Below are positions 1-10,425 of a stretch of 10,645 nucleotides of DNA, in pieces; position 1 is the first letter of the stretch, and each line of letters begins with the position of its first letter. Source of the DNA: an uncultured Oscillospiraceae bacterium (GTDB taxonomy: Bacteria; Bacillota; Clostridia; Oscillospirales; Oscillospiraceae). The notes beneath the pieces were generated by a model, which worked only from the letters and a program-made list of their open reading frames with translations, made no database searches and was not told the DNA's origin. The position numbers were made by a program, and so were the translations under genes. The stretch spans positions 1 to 10,645 of the forward strand of contig CANQKJ010000052.1 of NCBI GenBank assembly GCA_947624465.1, written 5' to 3'.

Positions 1-584
1 CACAGGGTGATGTCCAGGGCGTGGGTGCCGATGTCGATGAGGGGGCCGCCGCCCTGGAGGGCCTTGTTGGGGAACACACCCCAGGTGGGGACGGCGCGGC
101 GGCGCACCGCGTGGGCCTTGCCGTAGTACACGTCGCCCAGGTCGCCGGCGTCGCAGGCCTTTTTCAGGTTCTGGACCTCCGGGCGGAACCGGTTCTGGTA
201 GCCGATGGTGAACTTCTTGCCGCTCTTCTTCCAGGCGTCGATCATCTTCTGCGCGTCGGCGGAGCAGTGGGCCATGGGCTTTTCGCACATGACGTGCTTG
301 CCGGCCTCAAAGGCGGCCACGGTGATGGGGCAGTGGGCCACGTTGGGGGTGAGGACGTGGACCACGTCGATGTCCTTGTCCGCCAGCAGCTCGTTGTAGT
401 CGGTATAGACCTTGGCGTCCGCCGTGCCGTACTCCTTGCACAGCTTGACGGCCCGCTCCTCGATGATGTCGCAGAAGGCCACCACGTCGCACTTGTCGCT
501 CTGGCTCTTGAGGGCGGGGAGGTGCTTGTTGTTGGCGATGCCGCCGCAGCCGATGATGCCCACCTGCAGTTTTCCGTTCTTCAT
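1..584 (-). CDS. Gfo/Idh/MocA family NAD(P)-dependent oxidoreductase, C-terminus cut off by window edge
   Basis: The reading frame starts at the ATG at 584 after a strong AAGGAGGAAA ribosome binding site, and 194 codons are visible before the window edge. The N-terminus carries a Rossmann dinucleotide-binding motif, GCGGIA (residues 12-17). The EKP motif at 101-103 holds the family's catalytic lysine (K102), and GGGPLIDIGTHALD at 178-191 supplies the usual Asp (D184) and His (H188). Members of this family oxidise or reduce sugar hydroxyls with NAD(P). The gene is third in an operon, 26 bp after the TIM-barrel gene, downstream of two putative C-glycoside deglycosidase subunit genes. By analogy with DgpA of the puerarin pathway it may oxidise C3 of the glycosyl group to a ketone, making the substrate for C-C cleavage. 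It could instead act on the released sugar (inositol- or glucose-dehydrogenase-like). The family call is firm; the exact substrate is inferred from context only. Confidence 0.93.
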   Translation of the reverse strand, partial: MKNGKLQVGIIGCGGIANNKHLPALKSQSDKCDVVAFCDIIEERAVKLCKEYGTADAKVYTDYNELLADKDIDVVHVLTPNVAHCPITVAAFEAGKHVMCEKPMAHCSADAQKMIDAWKKSGKKFTIGYQNRFRPEVQNLKKACDAGDLGDVYYGKAHAVRRRAVPTWGVFPNKALQGGGPLIDIGTHALDITL

Positions 585-610
585 TGTCGTTTCCTCCTTG
601 TTATGTACCG

Positions 611-1573
611 TTAAGCGTTCAGATTCTTGTTCATCAGGGCCACGAAGTGCCGGAGCTGCTCCTCGGAGTCGATGGTCTCGTCGAAGTGGTGGCCCTCGTA
701 CTCGCTGGCGATGTAGCCCTTGTAGCCCAGCCGCTTGACCTCGGCGATGATCTCCTCAAAGGGGATGCAGGGGTCGTGGTCGTCGTTGTCCAGGTAGTAG
801 AACTTGCCGTGCATATAGAAGGCGCAGTCGATCATGTCCTTCCACTGCTCCATCTTGGCGGGGGCGGAGAACTTGCCGAACATCTCCTCTGCGGTGTGCT
901 TCTCGATGTCGTTGAAGTCGCCCTTTTCCACCACGCTGTAATCCGCGTGATTGCGGTGCAGCTCCACGATCTCCGCCAGCTTCTCAGGCCGGCAGCCGAA
1001 GGAGACCGCCTGGTCCAGATACAGCTTGTGAGGCATGGTCTGGAAGATGGAGAAGTCGGGCACGAAGCCCAGCCAGCCCTTGCCCTCGCCCTTCATGATT
1101 TCGAAATACTCCTTCCACACGGGGACCTCGGGGTGGTGGGGGTGGTGCATCTCGATGGTCAGCTTGACGCCCAGCTCCTTGCAGAAGGGGATCATCTGCC
1201 GGAAGATCTTGGGGGAGATGGCGTGCTGGGTGCGGACCATGGGGAAGCCCGCCTTCTTGGCGTAGATCAGGTCGTTGACGGTGAACTGGATGATCTCCTC
1301 CTCGGTCAAATCCCGGTCGGAGCGGATGCCCATGTCGATGTAGGCGCTCCAGCACACGGGCTCCAGCTCGTACTTGGCCAGAAGCGCCTTGCACTCCGCC
1401 AGCCACTCGTCAGAGGGATAGGGGTACTCGGGGACCATCTGGGCGGCCACGATCTCCACGCCCTGGTAGCCCATGTCGTGGGCCTTCTTCAAAATGCCCT
1501 CAAAGTCCAGCTTCTCGTGGATGAACTCGGTGGAAAAGCTGTAGAGGGAGATGCCGATCTTGATGTCGCTCAT
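611..1573 (-). CDS. Xylose-isomerase-like TIM-barrel protein, candidate C-glycoside deglycosidase alpha subunit
   Basis: This 320-residue cytoplasmic protein starts at ATG 1573, with GAAAGGA about 11 nt upstream. It opens with IGISLYSFS, typical of the first strand of the sugar phosphate isomerase/epimerase (AP endonuclease 2-like) TIM barrel. Likely divalent-metal ligands are E141 (in LTIEMHH), D173 (in FVPDFS), H255 (in YMHGKF) and E291 (in ASEYEGH). H143 or H144, two or three residues after the first ligand, is a candidate general base. Characterised C-glycoside deglycosidase alpha subunits have this fold, a metal of this kind and an essential histidine, and they pair with a small beta subunit. 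A beta-like gene lies 18 bp upstream here and a Gfo/Idh/MocA oxidoreductase 26 bp downstream. The fold call is firm. The alpha-subunit call rests on the gene pairing and metal-site pattern, and a plain sugar epimerase remains possible. Confidence 0.9.
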   Translation of the reverse strand: MSDIKIGISLYSFSTEFIHEKLDFEGILKKAHDMGYQGVEIVAAQMVPEYPYPSDEWLAECKALLAKYELEPVCWSAYIDMGIRSDRDLTEEEIIQFTVNDLIYAKKAGFPMVRTQHAISPKIFRQMIPFCKELGVKLTIEMHHPHHPEVPVWKEYFEIMKGEGKGWLGFVPDFSIFQTMPHKLYLDQAVSFGCRPEKLAEIVELHRNHADYSVVEKGDFNDIEKHTAEEMFGKFSAPAKMEQWKDMIDCAFYMHGKFYYLDNDDHDPCIPFEEIIAEVKRLGYKGYIASEYEGHHFDETIDSEEQLRHFVALMNKNLNA

Positions 1574-1591
1574 TGTAATTACCGTCCTTTC

Positions 1592-2008
1592 TCAAACCGC
1601 TTTCCGGGTCTCGGTCACGTCGCTGTCCAGGGTGAGATACTGGCCGAAGTAGCCGGTATAGGGCACCCGGTGCCTCATGTACACGTTCACGGTGTGCTCG
1701 CCGGGGGCGATGCCGCCGTCCTGCCGCACGAAGATGACGGCGGGGGTGCGGACGAACCAGTACTCCTTGAAGCACTCGGGCAGCTCAGAGAGCAGGAAGT
1801 CCTTGCCGTTGAGCCGGAAAGTGACCAGGCCGGCGGGCACATCCCTGCCGTCCACCTTGAAGGAGAGGGCCTCGATGCAGCTCAGGAAGGCGCCCCGATA
1901 GGACGGATACTTGATCTTGAACTGGTAGCCGATGGTCACGCCGCCCACCGTCACGTTCTCGATATCGTCCTTACAGATCAGGATCTTGTTATACGCTTGA
2001 AAGTCCAT
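1592..2008 (-). CDS. Small beta-sandwich-type protein, C-glycoside deglycosidase beta subunit-like (formerly DUF6379)
   Basis: This 138-residue protein starts at ATG 2008, five bases after a GGAGGG ribosome binding site. It has no signal peptide or membrane segment. It is rich in alternating hydrophobic residues (for example VTVGGVTIGYQFKI near residues 19-32) and ends with an aromatic stretch, VPYTGYFGQYLTLDS (about 115-129), consistent with an all-beta fold. Length, sequence character and position directly before a TIM-barrel gene match the small beta subunit of C-glycoside deglycosidases (the DfgAB, DgpBC and CarBC enzymes), which helps form the active site and stabilises the complex. It is the first gene of the minus-strand operon. 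The family was recognised from memory without an alignment, so the family is likely and the enzymatic role is an inference. Homologues also occur beside TIM-barrel genes of unknown substrate. Confidence 0.8.
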   Translation of the reverse strand: MDFQAYNKILICKDDIENVTVGGVTIGYQFKIKYPSYRGAFLSCIEALSFKVDGRDVPAGLVTFRLNGKDFLLSELPECFKEYWFVRTPAVIFVRQDGGIAPGEHTVNVYMRHRVPYTGYFGQYLTLDSDVTETRKAV

Positions 2009-4721: not shown

Positions 4722-4750
4722 ATTATAAACAGCGATAGTCAAAAAATCAA
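4722..4750 (-). promoter_or_regulatory. Sigma-A promoter of the AraC/GH39-like regulator gene
   Basis: Read on the minus strand, TTGATT (4750-4745) is followed after exactly 17 bp by a consensus TATAAT (4727-4722). The start codon lies about 33 bp beyond the -10. The -35 matches TTGACA at 4 of 6 positions. The -35 and spacer lie inside a long inverted repeat, so access to this promoter is probably controlled. Confidence 0.75.
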
Positions 4751-4769
4751 CATCGATTTTTTGACTATC
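4734..4769. repeat. Perfect 15-bp inverted repeat, candidate operator overlapping the regulator promoter
   Basis: Arms at 4734-4748 (GATAGTCAAAAAATC) and 4755-4769 are exact reverse complements, separated by AACATC. The dyad covers the -35 and most of the spacer of the regulator's promoter, a typical place for autorepression. It lies upstream of the likely transcription start, so an RNA hairpin role in that mRNA is unlikely. Each arm contains AGTCAAAAAAT, which is one base different from ACTCAAAAAAT at 2102-2112 in the deglycosidase-like operon's control region. The palindrome is directly seen; the binding protein is inferred. Confidence 0.8.
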
Positions 4770-4848: not shown

Positions 4849-4886
4849 AGAAAGTTTGCCCTCAAAGGCTTAAAGTGGTGGCAACA

Positions 4887-4922: not shown

Positions 4923-4955
4923 CGGAACGGTATTTCAACAGGAGGGCTGTCAAAC

Positions 4956-6749: not shown

Positions 6750-8222
6750 TTGGAAGTGCTGGAACTGAAGCACATCACCAAAGAATACCCCGGCGTCACC
6801 GCCCTGGACGACGTGTCCATCTCCTTCCGCCAGGGCGAGGTCCACGCTCTCATCGGTGAGAACGGGGCCGGCAAGTCCACCTTCATCAAGACCATCGCCG
6901 GCGCCATCCAGCCCACCTCCGGCGAGATCTGGATCGACGGCAGGAGCTACGACCACCTCACCCCCGCCCAGGCCCTGGACCTGGGCGTGGCGGTGGTCTA
7001 CCAGGAGCTGATCCAGTTCGAGGCCATGACCGTCATGGACAATCTGTTCATGGACATGAAGGACGTGAAGGGCCTGTTCGTGAACGACGCCGCCCGGGCC
7101 AAAAAGACCCGGGAGCTGCTTGACCGCTTCCACTGCCCCGTCTCCCCCAAAGCGCTGATCCGGGAGCTGTCCATCGCCAACCGGCAGATCATCGAGATCA
7201 TCAAGGCCGTGGTAAAGAACGCCAAGATCGTCATCATGGACGAACCCACCGCCGCCATCACCGTGGAGGAGCAGCAGCACTTGTTCGAGATCGTCAGGGA
7301 GCTGAAGGCCAACAACGTCACCGTCATCTACATCTCCCACCGGCTGGAGGAGCTGTTCGAGATCTGCGACCGGGTCTCCGTCCTCCGGGACGGCCAGTAC
7401 ATCACCACCATCGACATCAACGAGACCGACAAGCAGGGCCTCATCAACCTGATGGTGGGCCGCGAACTCAGCGAGACCTATCCCCCCAAGCCCCCCTGCG
7501 GGGACGAGGTGGTCCTCCAGGTGAAAAACCTCTCCGGCAACGGGGTGGAGGACATCAACTTCGAGCTGCATAAGGGCGAGATCCTGGGCTTCGCCGGGCT
7601 GGTGGGCGCGGGCCGCACGGAGCTGATGCACCTGATCTACGGCAACGCCAAAAAGACCGGCGGCGAGATCGTCATGGACGGCAAGTCCCTGGACCTCCGC
7701 CACCCCAGCGGCGGCATGAAGGCCGGCATCGGCCTGGTGCCCGAGGACCGCAAGTTCCAGGGCTGCTTCCTGGAGAAGCCCCTGTACTGGAACATCTCCA
7801 TCTCCGATATTGACACCCTGAGCCACGGCACCTTCGTGGACCGGAAGGCGGAGATGAAGCAGGCCGAGGACTACAAGGCCGCCATGCGGATCAAGACCCC
7901 CGACATGAAGGTGCTGGCCATGTCCCTGTCCGGCGGCAACCAGCAGAAGGTGGTCATCGGCAAGATGCTGGCCGCCCTGCCCGACATCCTCATCTTTGAC
8001 GAGCCCACCCGCGGCATCGACGTGGGCGCCCGCCACGAGATCTACCAGATGATGATCGACCTGACCCAGCAGGGCAAGTCCATCCTCATGGTGTCCTCCG
8101 ACATGGAGGAGCTGCTGGGGATGTCCGAGCGCATCGTGGTCCTCCACGAGGGACATCAGACCGGCATCCTGACCCGGGACGAGTTCTCTCAGGAGACCGT
8201 CATGACACTGGCGTCCGGCTGA
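6750..8222 (+). CDS. Sugar ABC importer ATPase with two nucleotide-binding domains (RbsA/MglA type)
   Basis: This 490-residue protein starts with TTG at 6750, eight bases after AAAGGAGG; no ATG lies near. The first half has Walker A GENGAGKST (36-44), Q-loop Q85, signature LSIAN (140-144), Walker B IVIMDE (160-165) and switch His H197. The second half has a degenerate Walker A, AGLVGAGRT (282-290), lacking the Lys. It also has signature LSGGN (393-397), Walker B ILIFDE (413-418), and SSD in place of the switch His. This asymmetry, with the second site weakened, is normal for ribose/galactose-type importers. It powers the permease encoded 31 bp downstream. The family call is firm; the substrate is not shown. 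Confidence 0.96.
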   Translation: MEVLELKHITKEYPGVTALDDVSISFRQGEVHALIGENGAGKSTFIKTIAGAIQPTSGEIWIDGRSYDHLTPAQALDLGVAVVYQELIQFEAMTVMDNLFMDMKDVKGLFVNDAARAKKTRELLDRFHCPVSPKALIRELSIANRQIIEIIKAVVKNAKIVIMDEPTAAITVEEQQHLFEIVRELKANNVTVIYISHRLEELFEICDRVSVLRDGQYITTIDINETDKQGLINLMVGRELSETYPPKPPCGDEVVLQVKNLSGNGVEDINFELHKGEILGFAGLVGAGRTELMHLIYGNAKKTGGEIVMDGKSLDLRHPSGGMKAGIGLVPEDRKFQGCFLEKPLYWNISISDIDTLSHGTFVDRKAEMKQAEDYKAAMRIKTPDMKVLAMSLSGGNQQKVVIGKMLAALPDILIFDEPTRGIDVGARHEIYQMMIDLTQQGKSILMVSSDMEELLGMSERIVVLHEGHQTGILTRDEFSQETVMTLASG

Positions 8223-8253
8223 CGCGGGCCCAGGGATTTGAGAGGTGTTAAAA

Positions 8254-9237
8254 ATGGAAAAACTGTCTGAGCGCAAACCCGCCGCCGCGCGGAAGCTGTC
8301 TGTGGGCCAGATCTTCTCCGAGCTGTCCATGCCCATCCTGCTGGTCCTGCTCATTATCGTATTCTCCATCCTGTCCAAGTCGTTCTTTACCCCGCTGAAC
8401 CTGACCAACATCCTGGTCCAGAACGTCCACATCGCCGTGTGCTCCTGCGCGGTCATGATGATCATGGTCTCCGGCGGCACCGACCTGTCCATCGGCTATC
8501 AGATGTCGGTGGCGGCCGTCCTCATGGCCAAGACCATCAGCGAGGGCATCCTCCCCGTCCCCGTGGCCATCATCCTGGGCATCCTGCTGTGCATGGTGCT
8601 GGGCGGCTTCAACGGCCTCATGGGCCAGGTGCTGAAAAGCCACACCATGATCATCACCCTGGGCACCATGGCCATCTTCCAGGGCATCTCCTACCTGATT
8701 TCCGGCTCCAAGTCCTTCCGCAACCTGCCTGACAGCTTCATGTACCTGGGCCAGGGCCGCCTGTTCGGCGTCATCCCCGTGAACGTGATCATCATGCTGG
8801 TCATCGTGATCATCGTGGGCGTCATCATGAGCATGACCTCCATCGGCCGGAAGATCTACGCCTGCGGCGACAACCCGGAGGCCGCCCGTCTGGCCGGCCT
8901 GAACGTGGCCCGCATCAAGGTGCTGGTGTTCATCTTCGCCGGCCTGCTGGTGGGCATCGCCGCCCTGCTGCTGGCCGCCCGCGCCGGCTACGCCGACTCC
9001 GGCACCTCCGGCCCCGGCATCGAGTTCACCGGCATCACCGCCTGCGTGCTGGCCGGCGTGGCCCTGAAGGGCGGCGAGGGCACCCTGTGGAAGGTCATCG
9101 TGGCCGTATTCGTGCTGGGCGTGCTGTCCAACGGTATGCAGCTCATCGGCCTGGGCACCTATCCCCAGTACATCGCCCGCGGCGCCATCATGCTGATCTC
9201 CCTGTACCTCAGCAACCGCAACGCCAAAGCCATGTAA
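8254..9237 (+). CDS. Sugar ABC importer permease (RbsC type)
   Basis: ATG 8254 is preferred, giving 327 residues, because GAGAGG (8240-8245) lies eight bases upstream. A GTG at 8245 would overlap that site. The protein is strongly hydrophobic with about 8-10 membrane spans, for example at 27-44, 59-72, 101-119, 173-193, 222-242 and 279-297. SGGTDLSIG (73-81) is typical of the ribose-type permease family. GDNPEAARLAGLNV (205-218) is the cytoplasmic coupling loop that contacts the ATPase. Length agrees with the family. Such permeases usually work as homodimers with one dual ATPase and a binding protein; all three parts are encoded here in order. Substrate is unknown. Confidence 0.95.
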   Translation: MEKLSERKPAAARKLSVGQIFSELSMPILLVLLIIVFSILSKSFFTPLNLTNILVQNVHIAVCSCAVMMIMVSGGTDLSIGYQMSVAAVLMAKTISEGILPVPVAIILGILLCMVLGGFNGLMGQVLKSHTMIITLGTMAIFQGISYLISGSKSFRNLPDSFMYLGQGRLFGVIPVNVIIMLVIVIIVGVIMSMTSIGRKIYACGDNPEAARLAGLNVARIKVLVFIFAGLLVGIAALLLAARAGYADSGTSGPGIEFTGITACVLAGVALKGGEGTLWKVIVAVFVLGVLSNGMQLIGLGTYPQYIARGAIMLISLYLSNRNAKAM

Positions 9238-9241
9238 TGTT

Positions 9242-9256
9242 CTTGCCAAAGGCAAG
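9242..9256 (+). other. Small hairpin between permease and binding-protein genes
   Basis: CTTGCC-AAA-GGCAAG forms a perfect 6-bp stem 4 bp after the permease stop and 47 bp before the binding-protein start. No U-tract follows, so readthrough is expected. Hairpins at this place in sugar importer operons can protect or process mRNA so that more binding protein is made, but that role here is only a suggestion. Confidence 0.45.
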
Positions 9257-9303
9257 TCATTAAATAGTCGACCCAACCCAAACAATTCAAGGAGGAACAA
9301 AAA

Positions 9304-10425
9304 ATGAAAAAAGCCATCGCCCTGCTGCTGGCCCTGATCATGGTCTGCGGCCTGCTCACCGCCTGCACCCCCAAGGACCCCAACGTGGGCCCCGCCAGCA
9401 ACCCCGGCACCGAGACTACCCCCGGCACCGAGCCCACCGAAAACCCCGGCACTGAGCCCTCTGAGAACCCCGGCGGCACCGGCTTCGACCCCACCGGCAA
9501 GAAGATCGGCTTCGTGACCTTCGGTCCCGGCGAGTTCTTCACCGCCCTGGCTGAGACCTACGTGGCCACCATGGAGGCCCAGGGCTGGGAGGCCTCCTAC
9601 ACCGACGGCGAGTTCAACCCCGAGACCCAGATCGCCGCCGCCGAGAACTACATCGCCATGGGCGTGGACGTGCTGGTCATCTGGGCTGTGGCCCCCGAGG
9701 CCATGAGCGGCGTGGTGAAGACCGCCATGGACCAGGGCATCAAGGTCGTGGCCTTCGTGGGCGACCTGCCCCAGTACAACCTGCGGATGCGGGCTGAGGA
9801 CGCCGACCTGGCCGCCAGTCTGGCCAAGCTGGCCGCCAAGTGGATCGACAAGACCTACGCCGACGCGCCCGACCACTCCGTCCCCGTGGGCGTCCTGTCC
9901 TGCCGCGCCGCCGACACCGGCGTCATCCAGGCCGACGTGCTGCTGAAGATCGCCGACTACTCTGTCAAGGCCGCCGAGCCCACCGAGTTCGAGCAGTCCG
10001 ACGAGACCGCCACCACCGGCCAGACCGCCGCCGAGAACCTGTACACCACCCACCCCGAGATCAAGGTGTTCCTGACCCCCCACAACGGCCTGGCCAACGG
10101 CCTCAACGCCTTCTACACCAGCATGAGCTCCCCCGTCACCGATTACAGCGACATGGGCATCTTCTGCATCAACGGCGATAACTCCACCACCGACAGCATC
10201 AAGGACTCCACCGAGGGCAAGTCTCCCCTCCGCGGCACCGTGATGACCGGCTCCGTGCAGGACACCGCCAATGAGATCCTGACCTATGTCACCGGCCTGA
10301 TGGACGGCACCTACGAGGACGGCTATGTGTCCGACGCCCGCCTGCTGTTCATCGACGCCGACACCATCGACGAGTACCAGTCCACCGGCACCGTCACCTC
10401 CGTCACCGCCGACGACTTCCAGTAA
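9304..10425 (+). CDS. Sugar-type ABC importer substrate-binding lipoprotein (periplasmic-binding-protein / LacI fold)
   Basis: This 373-residue protein starts at ATG 9304 after AAGGAGG (9289-9295). Residues 1-20 are a lipoprotein signal peptide with lipobox LLTAC; C21 would be lipid-anchored on the outside of the membrane. Residues 22-65 are a Pro/Gly/Thr/Glu-rich flexible linker with PGTE repeats. The rest is a two-lobed sugar-binding fold: KKIGFVTFGPGEFF (66-79), then AMGVDVLVIWAVAPEA (118-133), KVVAFVGDL (147-155), and the second lobe with SVPVGVLSC (192-200) and a NGLANGLNAF segment (251-260). It resembles ribose/galactose-type binding proteins (Peripla_BP_4) and delivers substrate to the permease encoded just upstream. 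Being last in the operon with the strongest ribosome binding site fits the need for excess binding protein. The ligand cannot be assigned; a glycoside rather than a free sugar is possible from the neighbourhood. Confidence 0.95.
   Translation: MKKAIALLLALIMVCGLLTACTPKDPNVGPASNPGTETTPGTEPTENPGTEPSENPGGTGFDPTGKKIGFVTFGPGEFFTALAETYVATMEAQGWEASYTDGEFNPETQIAAAENYIAMGVDVLVIWAVAPEAMSGVVKTAMDQGIKVVAFVGDLPQYNLRMRAEDADLAASLAKLAAKWIDKTYADAPDHSVPVGVLSCRAADTGVIQADVLLKIADYSVKAAEPTEFEQSDETATTGQTAAENLYTTHPEIKVFLTPHNGLANGLNAFYTSMSSPVTDYSDMGIFCINGDNSTTDSIKDSTEGKSPLRGTVMTGSVQDTANEILTYVTGLMDGTYEDGYVSDARLLFIDADTIDEYQSTGTVTSVTADDFQ
9403..9477 (+). repeat. Short in-frame repeat coding a PGTE-rich linker
   Basis: The tetrapeptide PGTE occurs at residues 34, 40 and 48 of the binding lipoprotein, followed by PGGT at 56. 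The codons are nearly identical (CCCGGCACCGAG), so the DNA is an imperfect 18-24 bp tandem repeat. It tethers the sugar-binding domain to the lipid anchor and is likely prone to length variation between strains. Confidence 0.8.

Follow-up and report, generated by a model that had tools for sequence, protein, structure and literature searches.

A probable locus for plant C-glucoside catabolism in an Oscillospiraceae genome, with a CocE-type hydrolase that alternates with phloretin-hydrolase relatives among sister loci

C-glycosyl flavonoids are common in plants and withstand ordinary glycosidases, and to our knowledge few C-deglycosylating systems have been characterised. We analysed a 10,645-bp stretch of DNA (the window), the complete contig C52 of G000, a metagenome-assembled genome (MAG) of an uncultured Oscillospiraceae bacterium (2.09 Mb, 278 contigs, 78% complete). 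Its genes indicate that the window is very probably most of a locus for plant C-glucoside catabolism in a gut Oscillospiraceae bacterium. They encode both subunits of a C-glycoside deglycosidase (CGD), a DgpA-related oxidoreductase, a regulator, a CocE/NonD family hydrolase, a sugar-type ATP-binding-cassette (ABC) importer and the start of a flavone reductase (FLR) homologue. What is unusual is the setting: C-deglycosylation, apparent aglycone reduction and a hydrolase alternating with phloretin hydrolase come together in one locus. Below, L numbers denote loci or stretches from genomes, G numbers genomes and C numbers contigs; papers are cited by PMC number and drawn on for the accessible part of their text.

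A preliminary description, covering bases 1–2008, had read three genes there as a putative C-glycoside deglycosidase operon and had proposed comparing the 138-residue product, called beta-like, with the beta-subunit family (formerly DUF6379). A profile search agrees with this reading, matching the protein to PF19906, “C-glycoside deglycosidase beta subunit”, at 118.8 bits over a cut-off of 27.6 (E=1.4e-34). Among solved proteins it matched 9m3a_B (E=3.1e-25) and DgpB (7bvr_B; E=1.3e-22), with identity to DgpB at 46 of 120 positions (38%). The alpha subunit matched PF01261 (E=8.3e-16) and DgpC (7bvr_A; E=1.3e-62), with which 113 of 311 positions (36%) are identical. In the alignment, E141, D173, H255, K257 and E291 of alpha correspond to E141, D173, H263, K265 and E299 of DgpC, whereas H143 falls on the base H143 and E293 on its partner Glu, E301. 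Four of the ligands (E141, D173, H255, E291) and H143 had been singled out in the preliminary description; K257 and E293 were absent from that list. All seven residues were invariant in 120/120 sequences, the best 120 of 439 alpha homologues. The roles come from AgCGD2, whose metal ligands are Glu147, Asp179, His269, Lys271 and Glu305 and whose base is His149 with Glu307; H143 and E301 are the PuCGD counterparts of the latter two, and in PuCGD a water occupies the metal-binding position of the Lys (PMC8563793). For the five ligands, we subtracted six from the AgCGD2 residue numbers to obtain those of DgpC, the difference shown by the pairs H149/H143 and E307/E301.

The beta subunit carries a further informative residue. 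Its Y37 aligns with Tyr39 of DgpB and was invariant in 120/120 sequences, the best 120 of 292 beta homologues. Substitution of Tyr39 by Phe in DgpB abolished effectively all activity on C-glucosides and lowered that on O-glucosides only 2.4-fold (PMC10628242), and the conserved Tyr37 thus adds predictive support for cleavage of C-glycosides, not only of O-glycosides. We assign the beta and alpha subunits, from their sequences, to the CGD kind, in a clade separate from the solved enzymes.

The third gene product matched PF01408 (E=9.1e-30), and its identification as a Gfo/Idh/MocA oxidoreductase stands, with the qualification that the gene is truncated by the contig end and that 194 residues lie within the window. 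The link to the Dgp system drawn in the preliminary description proved to be a close one, because the fragment is a near relative of DgpA itself (7xr9_A; E=1.1e-91), identical at 133 of 191 positions (70%). A full-length homologue of 369 aa in L010 matched DgpA with E=1.5e-175. Since the oxidase is near to DgpA but the cleaving enzyme is not near to DgpBC, the comparison suggests that the sugar is similar to, and the aglycone different from, those of the DgpABC case. The homology to DgpA, DgpB and DgpC, the PF19906 match and the catalytic residues together support the deglycosidase reading of the operon.

The extent of the locus became clear from same-genus genomes. The whole window aligns collinearly with L011, with 93.4% identity across 10.66 kb, and alpha is found at 99% identity in G029 (L011) and G030 (L010), both of the same genus and each 98% complete; one of these two loci is on a 95-kb contig that is collinear across the whole window. 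In G012 (L013) alpha is at 95% identity, the alphas of L012, L013 and L026 are 94–95% identical to the window's, and MAGs labelled Lachnospiraceae contain it at 87%. At the right end of the window, 24/24 codons are identical to the L011 gene 101–1045, which directly follows the binding-protein gene and whose product matched FLR (PDB 7d38; E=2.5e-37; the FLR codes are from PMC7862272). In L011 this gene is followed by that of a fumarate-reductase-like flavoprotein (L039), and in G030 the binding protein and the FLR homologue are on another contig, C13. At the other end, past the oxidoreductase, L011 continues with a second TIM barrel, another Gfo, a 708-aa Fe-S flavoprotein, a NuoF-like protein, a butyrate kinase (Buk; over the NCBIfam cut-off) and a phosphopantetheinyl transferase, with the L010 copy as the one scanned for some of these families. 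In L010 the gene after the oxidoreductase, which encodes the second TIM barrel, had the uncharacterised protein 2zds as its best match (E=5.7e-19) and matched the “2-hydroxy-3-keto-glucal hydratase” 8ro4 weakly (E=1.3e-7). D3dgpA is reported to regain NAD+ with 3-oxo-glucose (PMC11239390), so that a hydratase here would close a redox-neutral cycle. The preliminary description stopped at base 2008, and the regulator, CocE, the ABC importer and the start of FLR fell outside it; its three genes are as described, while the functional unit is probably the whole contig.

PF19906 genes were found in 7 of the 60 genomes of a relatives search, G000 included, and the alpha clade (E up to 1e-60) in 4 of 391 genomes of a class sample, again with its own counted. 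A scan of genome contigs with alpha gave 28 named loci at 51–99% identity, on which our statements of distribution rest. Their hosts are MAGs titled “Lapin-...” (probably rabbit), sheep, goat and roe-deer MAGs, and named organisms including Blautia parvula, Anaerobium acetethylicum, Clostridium caldaquaticum and Eubacterium ramulus. L035, recorded as Candidatus Scybalocola faecavium, belongs to the same alpha clade at 71% identity; Scybalocola faecavium is named as a Catenibacillus in PMC11170127. Further diverged CGD alpha/beta pairs were seen in or around L023/L056, L024, L030, L069 and L070.

The hydrolase gene divergent from the CGD genes encodes a CocE/NonD protein (TIGR00976, 194.2 bits, cut-off 66.3; PDB 3ib3, E=4.6e-77), the nearest solved relatives being CocE/NonD proteins and cocaine esterase. 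Its start codon is provisional; the longest open reading frame begins at 4875, and the length given here is the one taken. Ser198 and His317 (numbered from base 4953) were invariant in 21/21 aligned sequences, and by their alignment with 3ib3, and from what is known of CocE, we assign them to the catalytic triad. At the column after HFH, where CocE presumably has its Asp, the aligned sequences differ (D, N, L and others).

A CocE homologue is linked to CGD, as in the window, in 12 of the 28 loci: it is near CGD in 11 (L010, L011, L016, L017, L020, L022, L024, L025, L029, L033 and L034) and about 14 kb off on the same contig (L056) in L023. Nine other loci (L012–L015, L018, L019, L021, L026 and L035) have a protein of the PF18089 type (phloretin/DAPG hydrolase). 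The copy in L012 matched the solved phloretin hydrolase with E=2.7e-7, one His, one Glu and the HxxxE motif were conserved in 10/10 aligned proteins of this type, and all nine genomes hold PF18089 proteins over the Pfam cut-off. CocE and PF18089 occurred together as full genes in none of the 28 loci, for which flanks of varying length, up to 10 kb on each side, were covered. Blautia parvula represents the phloretin-hydrolase type and Anaerobium acetethylicum the CocE type. The more distant loci L063 and L064 (alpha 48–49%) have CocE relatives at 36–37%. In L015 the fumarate-reductase-like gene (8701–10145) appeared as two abutting tblastn pieces, possibly an assembly error or a broken gene.

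To place this alternation on the phylogeny of the cleaving enzyme, an alpha tree of 30 rows was labelled by hydrolase: 15 CocE (the window, L063 and L064 included), 9 phloretin hydrolase and 6 unlabelled (DgpC included). The tree contains 6 label changes (5–6 over bootstrap), of which the starred branches force at least 2. Shuffled labels gave a mean of 7.4 changes, with 95 of 500 shuffles at 6 or fewer, indicating that the hydrolase label hardly follows the alpha tree; 11 of its 27 inner branches are open, DgpC is on a very long branch and L034/L063 carries a long-branch join warning. Genome-wide, CocE (E up to 1e-60) was found in 17/28 genomes and PF18089 in 18/28, which divides them into CocE only (9), both (8), PF18089 only (10) and neither (1), with a one-sided hypergeometric value of 0.022, relatedness ignored. 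The genomes with both are drafts in which the two families are on separate contigs, that of L033 excepted. PF18089 (E up to 0.001) had no match in G029 and G030, nor in G000, where 78% completeness limits the negative.

We found no earlier report of a link between CGD and CocE in a literature search that was not exhaustive and did not reach most subscription papers. The accessible parts of PMC8563793, PMC10628242, PMC12724307 and PMC11170127 do not describe CGD joined to aglycone reduction and an alternating hydrolase.

The company of CocE in other genomes bears on its possible reaction. On the contig of L023, a gene for an acyl carrier protein (ACP)-like protein (L056) is located between RbsA and a CocE 90% identical to the window's; this ACP aligns gap-free to solved ACPs and its Ser falls on the pantetheine Ser. 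Across 17 genomes, 11 of 28 CocE genes had a same-strand ACP no more than 200 bp away and one further had it at 207 bp, distances being counted on all 61 ACP matches. In most copies seen, the CocE-adjacent ACP has KS instead of the usual DS at the carrier serine. Some of the pairs are adjoined by phosphotransacylase (Pta) and Buk, and the own genome has an ACP-CocE-Pta-Buk set on contig C98 (L071). Among the CGD loci, ACP was present in 5 of 12 of the CocE type (L022, L023, L025, L029, L033) and 0 of 9 of the PF18089 type, and the same counts were obtained for Pta or Buk (L011, L022, L023, L029 and L033 against none). Because ACP, Pta and Buk are its neighbours, CocE is suggested to handle an acyl group. 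The idea that Pta and Buk are exclusive to CocE loci was weakened by L058, a 3.4-kb contig (C41) of G009 on which PF18089, a metallo-beta-lactamase-like protein and Buk stand together; the CGD alpha of this genome is from another clade.

Two side observations concern related gene sets. A second locus of the genus, L068 (4050–13387), consecutively encodes an FLR-like protein, a fumarate-reductase-like flavoprotein, an Fe-S flavoprotein, a NuoF-like protein, ACP, CocE, Pta and Buk, and the part from the Fe-S flavoprotein to Buk is also in the own genome (L071); no CGD was found within the fetched stretches of L068 and L071. In L072 (6997–8718), L076 (5668–7387) and L077 (5760–7482), a 116-aa protein, labelled cupin-like by eye, is in a row with ACP and Pta. 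These rows are from three genomes titled Parasporobacterium (those of L028, L030 and L031), with no CocE in the fetched stretch.

The features of the window are listed in Table 1 together with examples of the CocE-adjacent ACP. The beta/alpha gap of 18 bp and the alpha/Gfo gap of 26 bp reproduced the values given for the tightly ordered three genes in the preliminary description. The AraC-GH39 gene is upstream of beta on the same strand, and the CocE and importer genes run divergently from it. Between the AraC-GH39 gene and CocE there is an inverted repeat, and its half-site TCAAAAAAT recurs at 2103–2112, upstream of beta. The half-site had 3 matches in the window, two of them the repeat arms, against a highest count of 1 over 200 shuffles, for a pattern picked after the repeat was seen. 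The inverted-repeat class as a whole was not enriched (3 sites in the terminator scan, shuffle mean 5.9). A sequence related to the repeat is present in L011 and L056, and we regard the repeat and half-site as a candidate operator for both transcription units. A long GC-rich hairpin with a T run was noticed by eye at 2203–2245, 3' of the AraC-GH39 gene; it was not among the sites of the terminator scan and is likely a terminator between this gene and beta. The window had no Rfam hit at the gathering threshold and none in a tRNA scan, and PADLOC gave no hit for either alpha or beta. Compared with plasmids by megablast, the window matched 48 records, each over less than 80% of the query; the 5 matches listed were short and inside the ABC ATPase gene.

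Table 1 Features of the window and examples of ACP genes next to CocE
Feature	Position	Strand	Evidence
Gfo/Idh/MocA glycoside 3-dehydrogenase, DgpA relative, truncated by contig end	3..584	-	DgpA match
C-glycoside deglycosidase alpha subunit (DgpC-like TIM barrel), 320 aa	611..1573	-	DgpC match
C-glycoside deglycosidase beta subunit (DgpB-like), 138 aa	1592..2008	-	PF19906, DgpB match
AraC-type regulator with GH39-like C-terminal domain, 809 aa	2260..4689	-	PF12833, PF01229
16-bp inverted repeat, candidate operator, half-site TCAAAAAAT	4734..4769	.	terminator scan
CocE/NonD family serine hydrolase, about 586 aa	4950..6710	+	TIGR00976, PDB 3ib3
Sugar ABC importer ATPase, RbsA type	6750..8222	+	Pfam/NCBIfam, under equivalog cut-offs
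Sugar ABC importer permease, RbsC type	8245..9237	+	PF02653
Sugar-type substrate-binding protein	9304..10425	+	PF13407, E=1.7e-21
FLR homologue, initial 24 codons, truncated by contig end	10573..10645	+	identity to L011 gene
CocE-adjacent ACP examples	L056 6983-7219; G447:C1:93283; G446:C7:4081; L071 6637-6861

Several points weigh against a C-glucoside locus of the kind proposed. Identity to DgpC is only 36% for alpha and identity to DgpB only 38% for beta, so that the aglycone may be unlike those tested so far. Tyr37 and the metal ligands, uniform in the best 120 homologues on each side, support the class and do not tell members of the near family apart. The homology to FLR is distant, and the window holds only 24 residues of this protein. 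On the hydrolase side, a PF18089 match of 33 residues, in a frame of 45, lies on the contig of the CocE locus L033 and may be a remnant or chance; 7 of the 28 loci have neither hydrolase (L027, L028, L030, L031, L032, L036 and L037, of which L032 and L037 are shorter than 5.2 kb and the contig of L036 stops inside alpha); 8 of the 28 genomes hold both families somewhere; the absence of PF18089 from G000 is limited by its completeness; and the 9:12 alternation could reflect different aglycones, not one shared reaction. It was also considered that the complex is by nature an eliminase chiefly for 3-keto O-glucosides, or for another 3-keto glycoside, and that its C-cleavage is secondary. PuCGE acts on O- and C-substrates, with alpha alone retaining about 1.4% of the O-activity (PMC10628242), and D3dgpA also oxidises O-glucosides (PMC11239390). 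However, the beta Tyr, the loss of which costs DgpB nearly all C- and little O-activity, is kept here and in all of the best 120 homologues, and 3-oxo O-glycosides are reportedly cleaved without an enzyme (PMC11239390), which makes a dedicated two-subunit O-enzyme hard to explain; we consider this reading improbable. A misbinned or recently transferred contig would be uninformative on the species, and the presence of PF19906 in so few genomes of the relatives search, the 87%-identical alpha in MAGs labelled Lachnospiraceae and the fragmented, incomplete state of G000 are in line with it. This is very improbable given the two more same-genus genomes, each near-complete, that carry a 99%-identical alpha, one on the long contig collinear over the window.

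For CocE the choice is less clear. It may be a plain esterase that deacylates acylated C-glycosides or opens lactone aglycones such as bergenin's, before or after deglycosylation, and is unrelated to the phloretin hydrolase step, which we regard as quite possible though short of probable. Its nearest solved relatives fit this role, as do the 8 of 28 genomes with both CocE and PF18089 genes and the second carboxylesterase, of the PF00135 type, in the CocE clusters of L024 and L025 (Pfam on L024; L025 is 82% identical). On the other hand, CocE and PF18089 alternate beside nearly identical CGD (alpha 94–95%), with the 6 changes on the tree and at least 2 forced; no locus has both as full genes; the two near-complete genomes of the CocE type have no PF18089 match; and many CocE genes are paired with ACP, some also with acyl-phosphate enzymes, which would be superfluous for a deacylase. 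A more specific proposal is that CocE replaces phloretin hydrolase in an energy-conserving way: as a serine acyltransferase it would cleave the C-C bond of the reduced flavonoid, an acylphloroglucinol, and pass the phenylpropionyl group to a dedicated ACP, from which Pta and the butyrate-kinase relative would yield the acid and ATP, the own-genome ACP acting in trans from C98. We think this unlikely, as the window, L010 and L011 have no ACP adjoining the CGD-linked CocE, an ACP is present in only 5 of the 12 CGD loci of the CocE type, 16 of 28 CocE genes have no ACP within 250 bp, Buk also stands with PF18089 in L058, and ACP occurs with Pta and no CocE in the stretches L072, L073, L076, L077 and L079.

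Returning to plant C-glucoside catabolism, we infer the activities, the substrate, the direction of flow and the reaction of CocE as follows. The sugar-type ABC importer would take up the glycoside, and the DgpA relative would oxidise the 3-OH of its sugar. The CGD alpha/beta complex would bind a divalent metal through E141, D173, H255, E291 and possibly K257, with H143 as the base and beta Tyr37 holding the phenolic aglycone, and elimination across the C-C bond would release the aglycone and 2-hydroxy-3-keto-glucal. The second TIM barrel, perhaps a hydratase, and the further Gfo that follow in same-genus genomes would return glucose. The FLR homologue, the fumarate-reductase-like flavoprotein and the Fe-S NADH modules would reduce the aglycone. 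The compound that CocE cleaves is most likely the reduced aglycone or one of its esters, and the enzyme perhaps stands in for phloretin hydrolase, a relative of which is found at this place in sister loci.

These results add a separate CGD clade, at 36–38% identity to DgpBC and with a DgpA-like oxidase, that occurs both in gut MAGs and among named strains (Blautia parvula, Anaerobium acetethylicum and Clostridium caldaquaticum) and is accompanied by a flavone-reductase homologue and a testable hydrolase. Searches based on PF18089 miss part of the flavonoid degraders if CocE performs the role of phloretin hydrolase.

The closest known counterpart is DgpABC of Dorea sp. PUE (PuCGD/PuCGE), which deglycosylates puerarin. 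Both systems have the same three functions in adjacent genes and share the ligand residues, the base, the beta Tyr and a closely related oxidoreductase. In contrast, the window's subunits are diverged, its order is beta-alpha-oxidoreductase, its set is joined by the FLR homologue, CocE, the ABC importer and the AraC-GH39 regulator, and PuCGD has the water mentioned above where the Lys would be (PMC8563793). The solved CGD entry 9m3a, a DUF6379 protein with a “xylose isomerase”, is similarly distant from the window's alpha and beta: 9m3a_B is the nearest solved beta, and 9m3a_A is the third-listed alpha match (E=1.2e-57), behind two DgpC entries. DgpA1 of W974-1 (9m3d_B) is second to DgpA for the oxidoreductase (E=3.8e-83). 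Among gut Firmicutes, Catenibacillus scindens and C. decagia have several DgpBC paralogues, a flavone reductase and a phloretin hydrolase in the genome, with dgpA apart from dgpBC, unlike in the window (PMC11170127); the accessible main text of that paper contains neither “coce” nor “esterase” and mentions no cluster in which CGD is combined with a flavone reductase or phloretin hydrolase. The AtOGE operon of Agrobacterium tumefaciens shares the logic of oxidation, elimination, hydration and reduction, and the second TIM barrel of L010 weakly matched a 2-hydroxy-3-keto-glucal hydratase, but AtOGE is unrelated to CGD in sequence and specific for O-glycosides (PMC10628242). The set of FLR, CHI, enoate reductase and phloretin hydrolase in Flavonifractor plautii and Eubacterium ramulus has an FLR homologue in common with the window and phloretin-hydrolase relatives in common with its sister loci; unlike that set, the genes here are joined to CGD, and loci of the window's type have CocE and no PF18089 gene.

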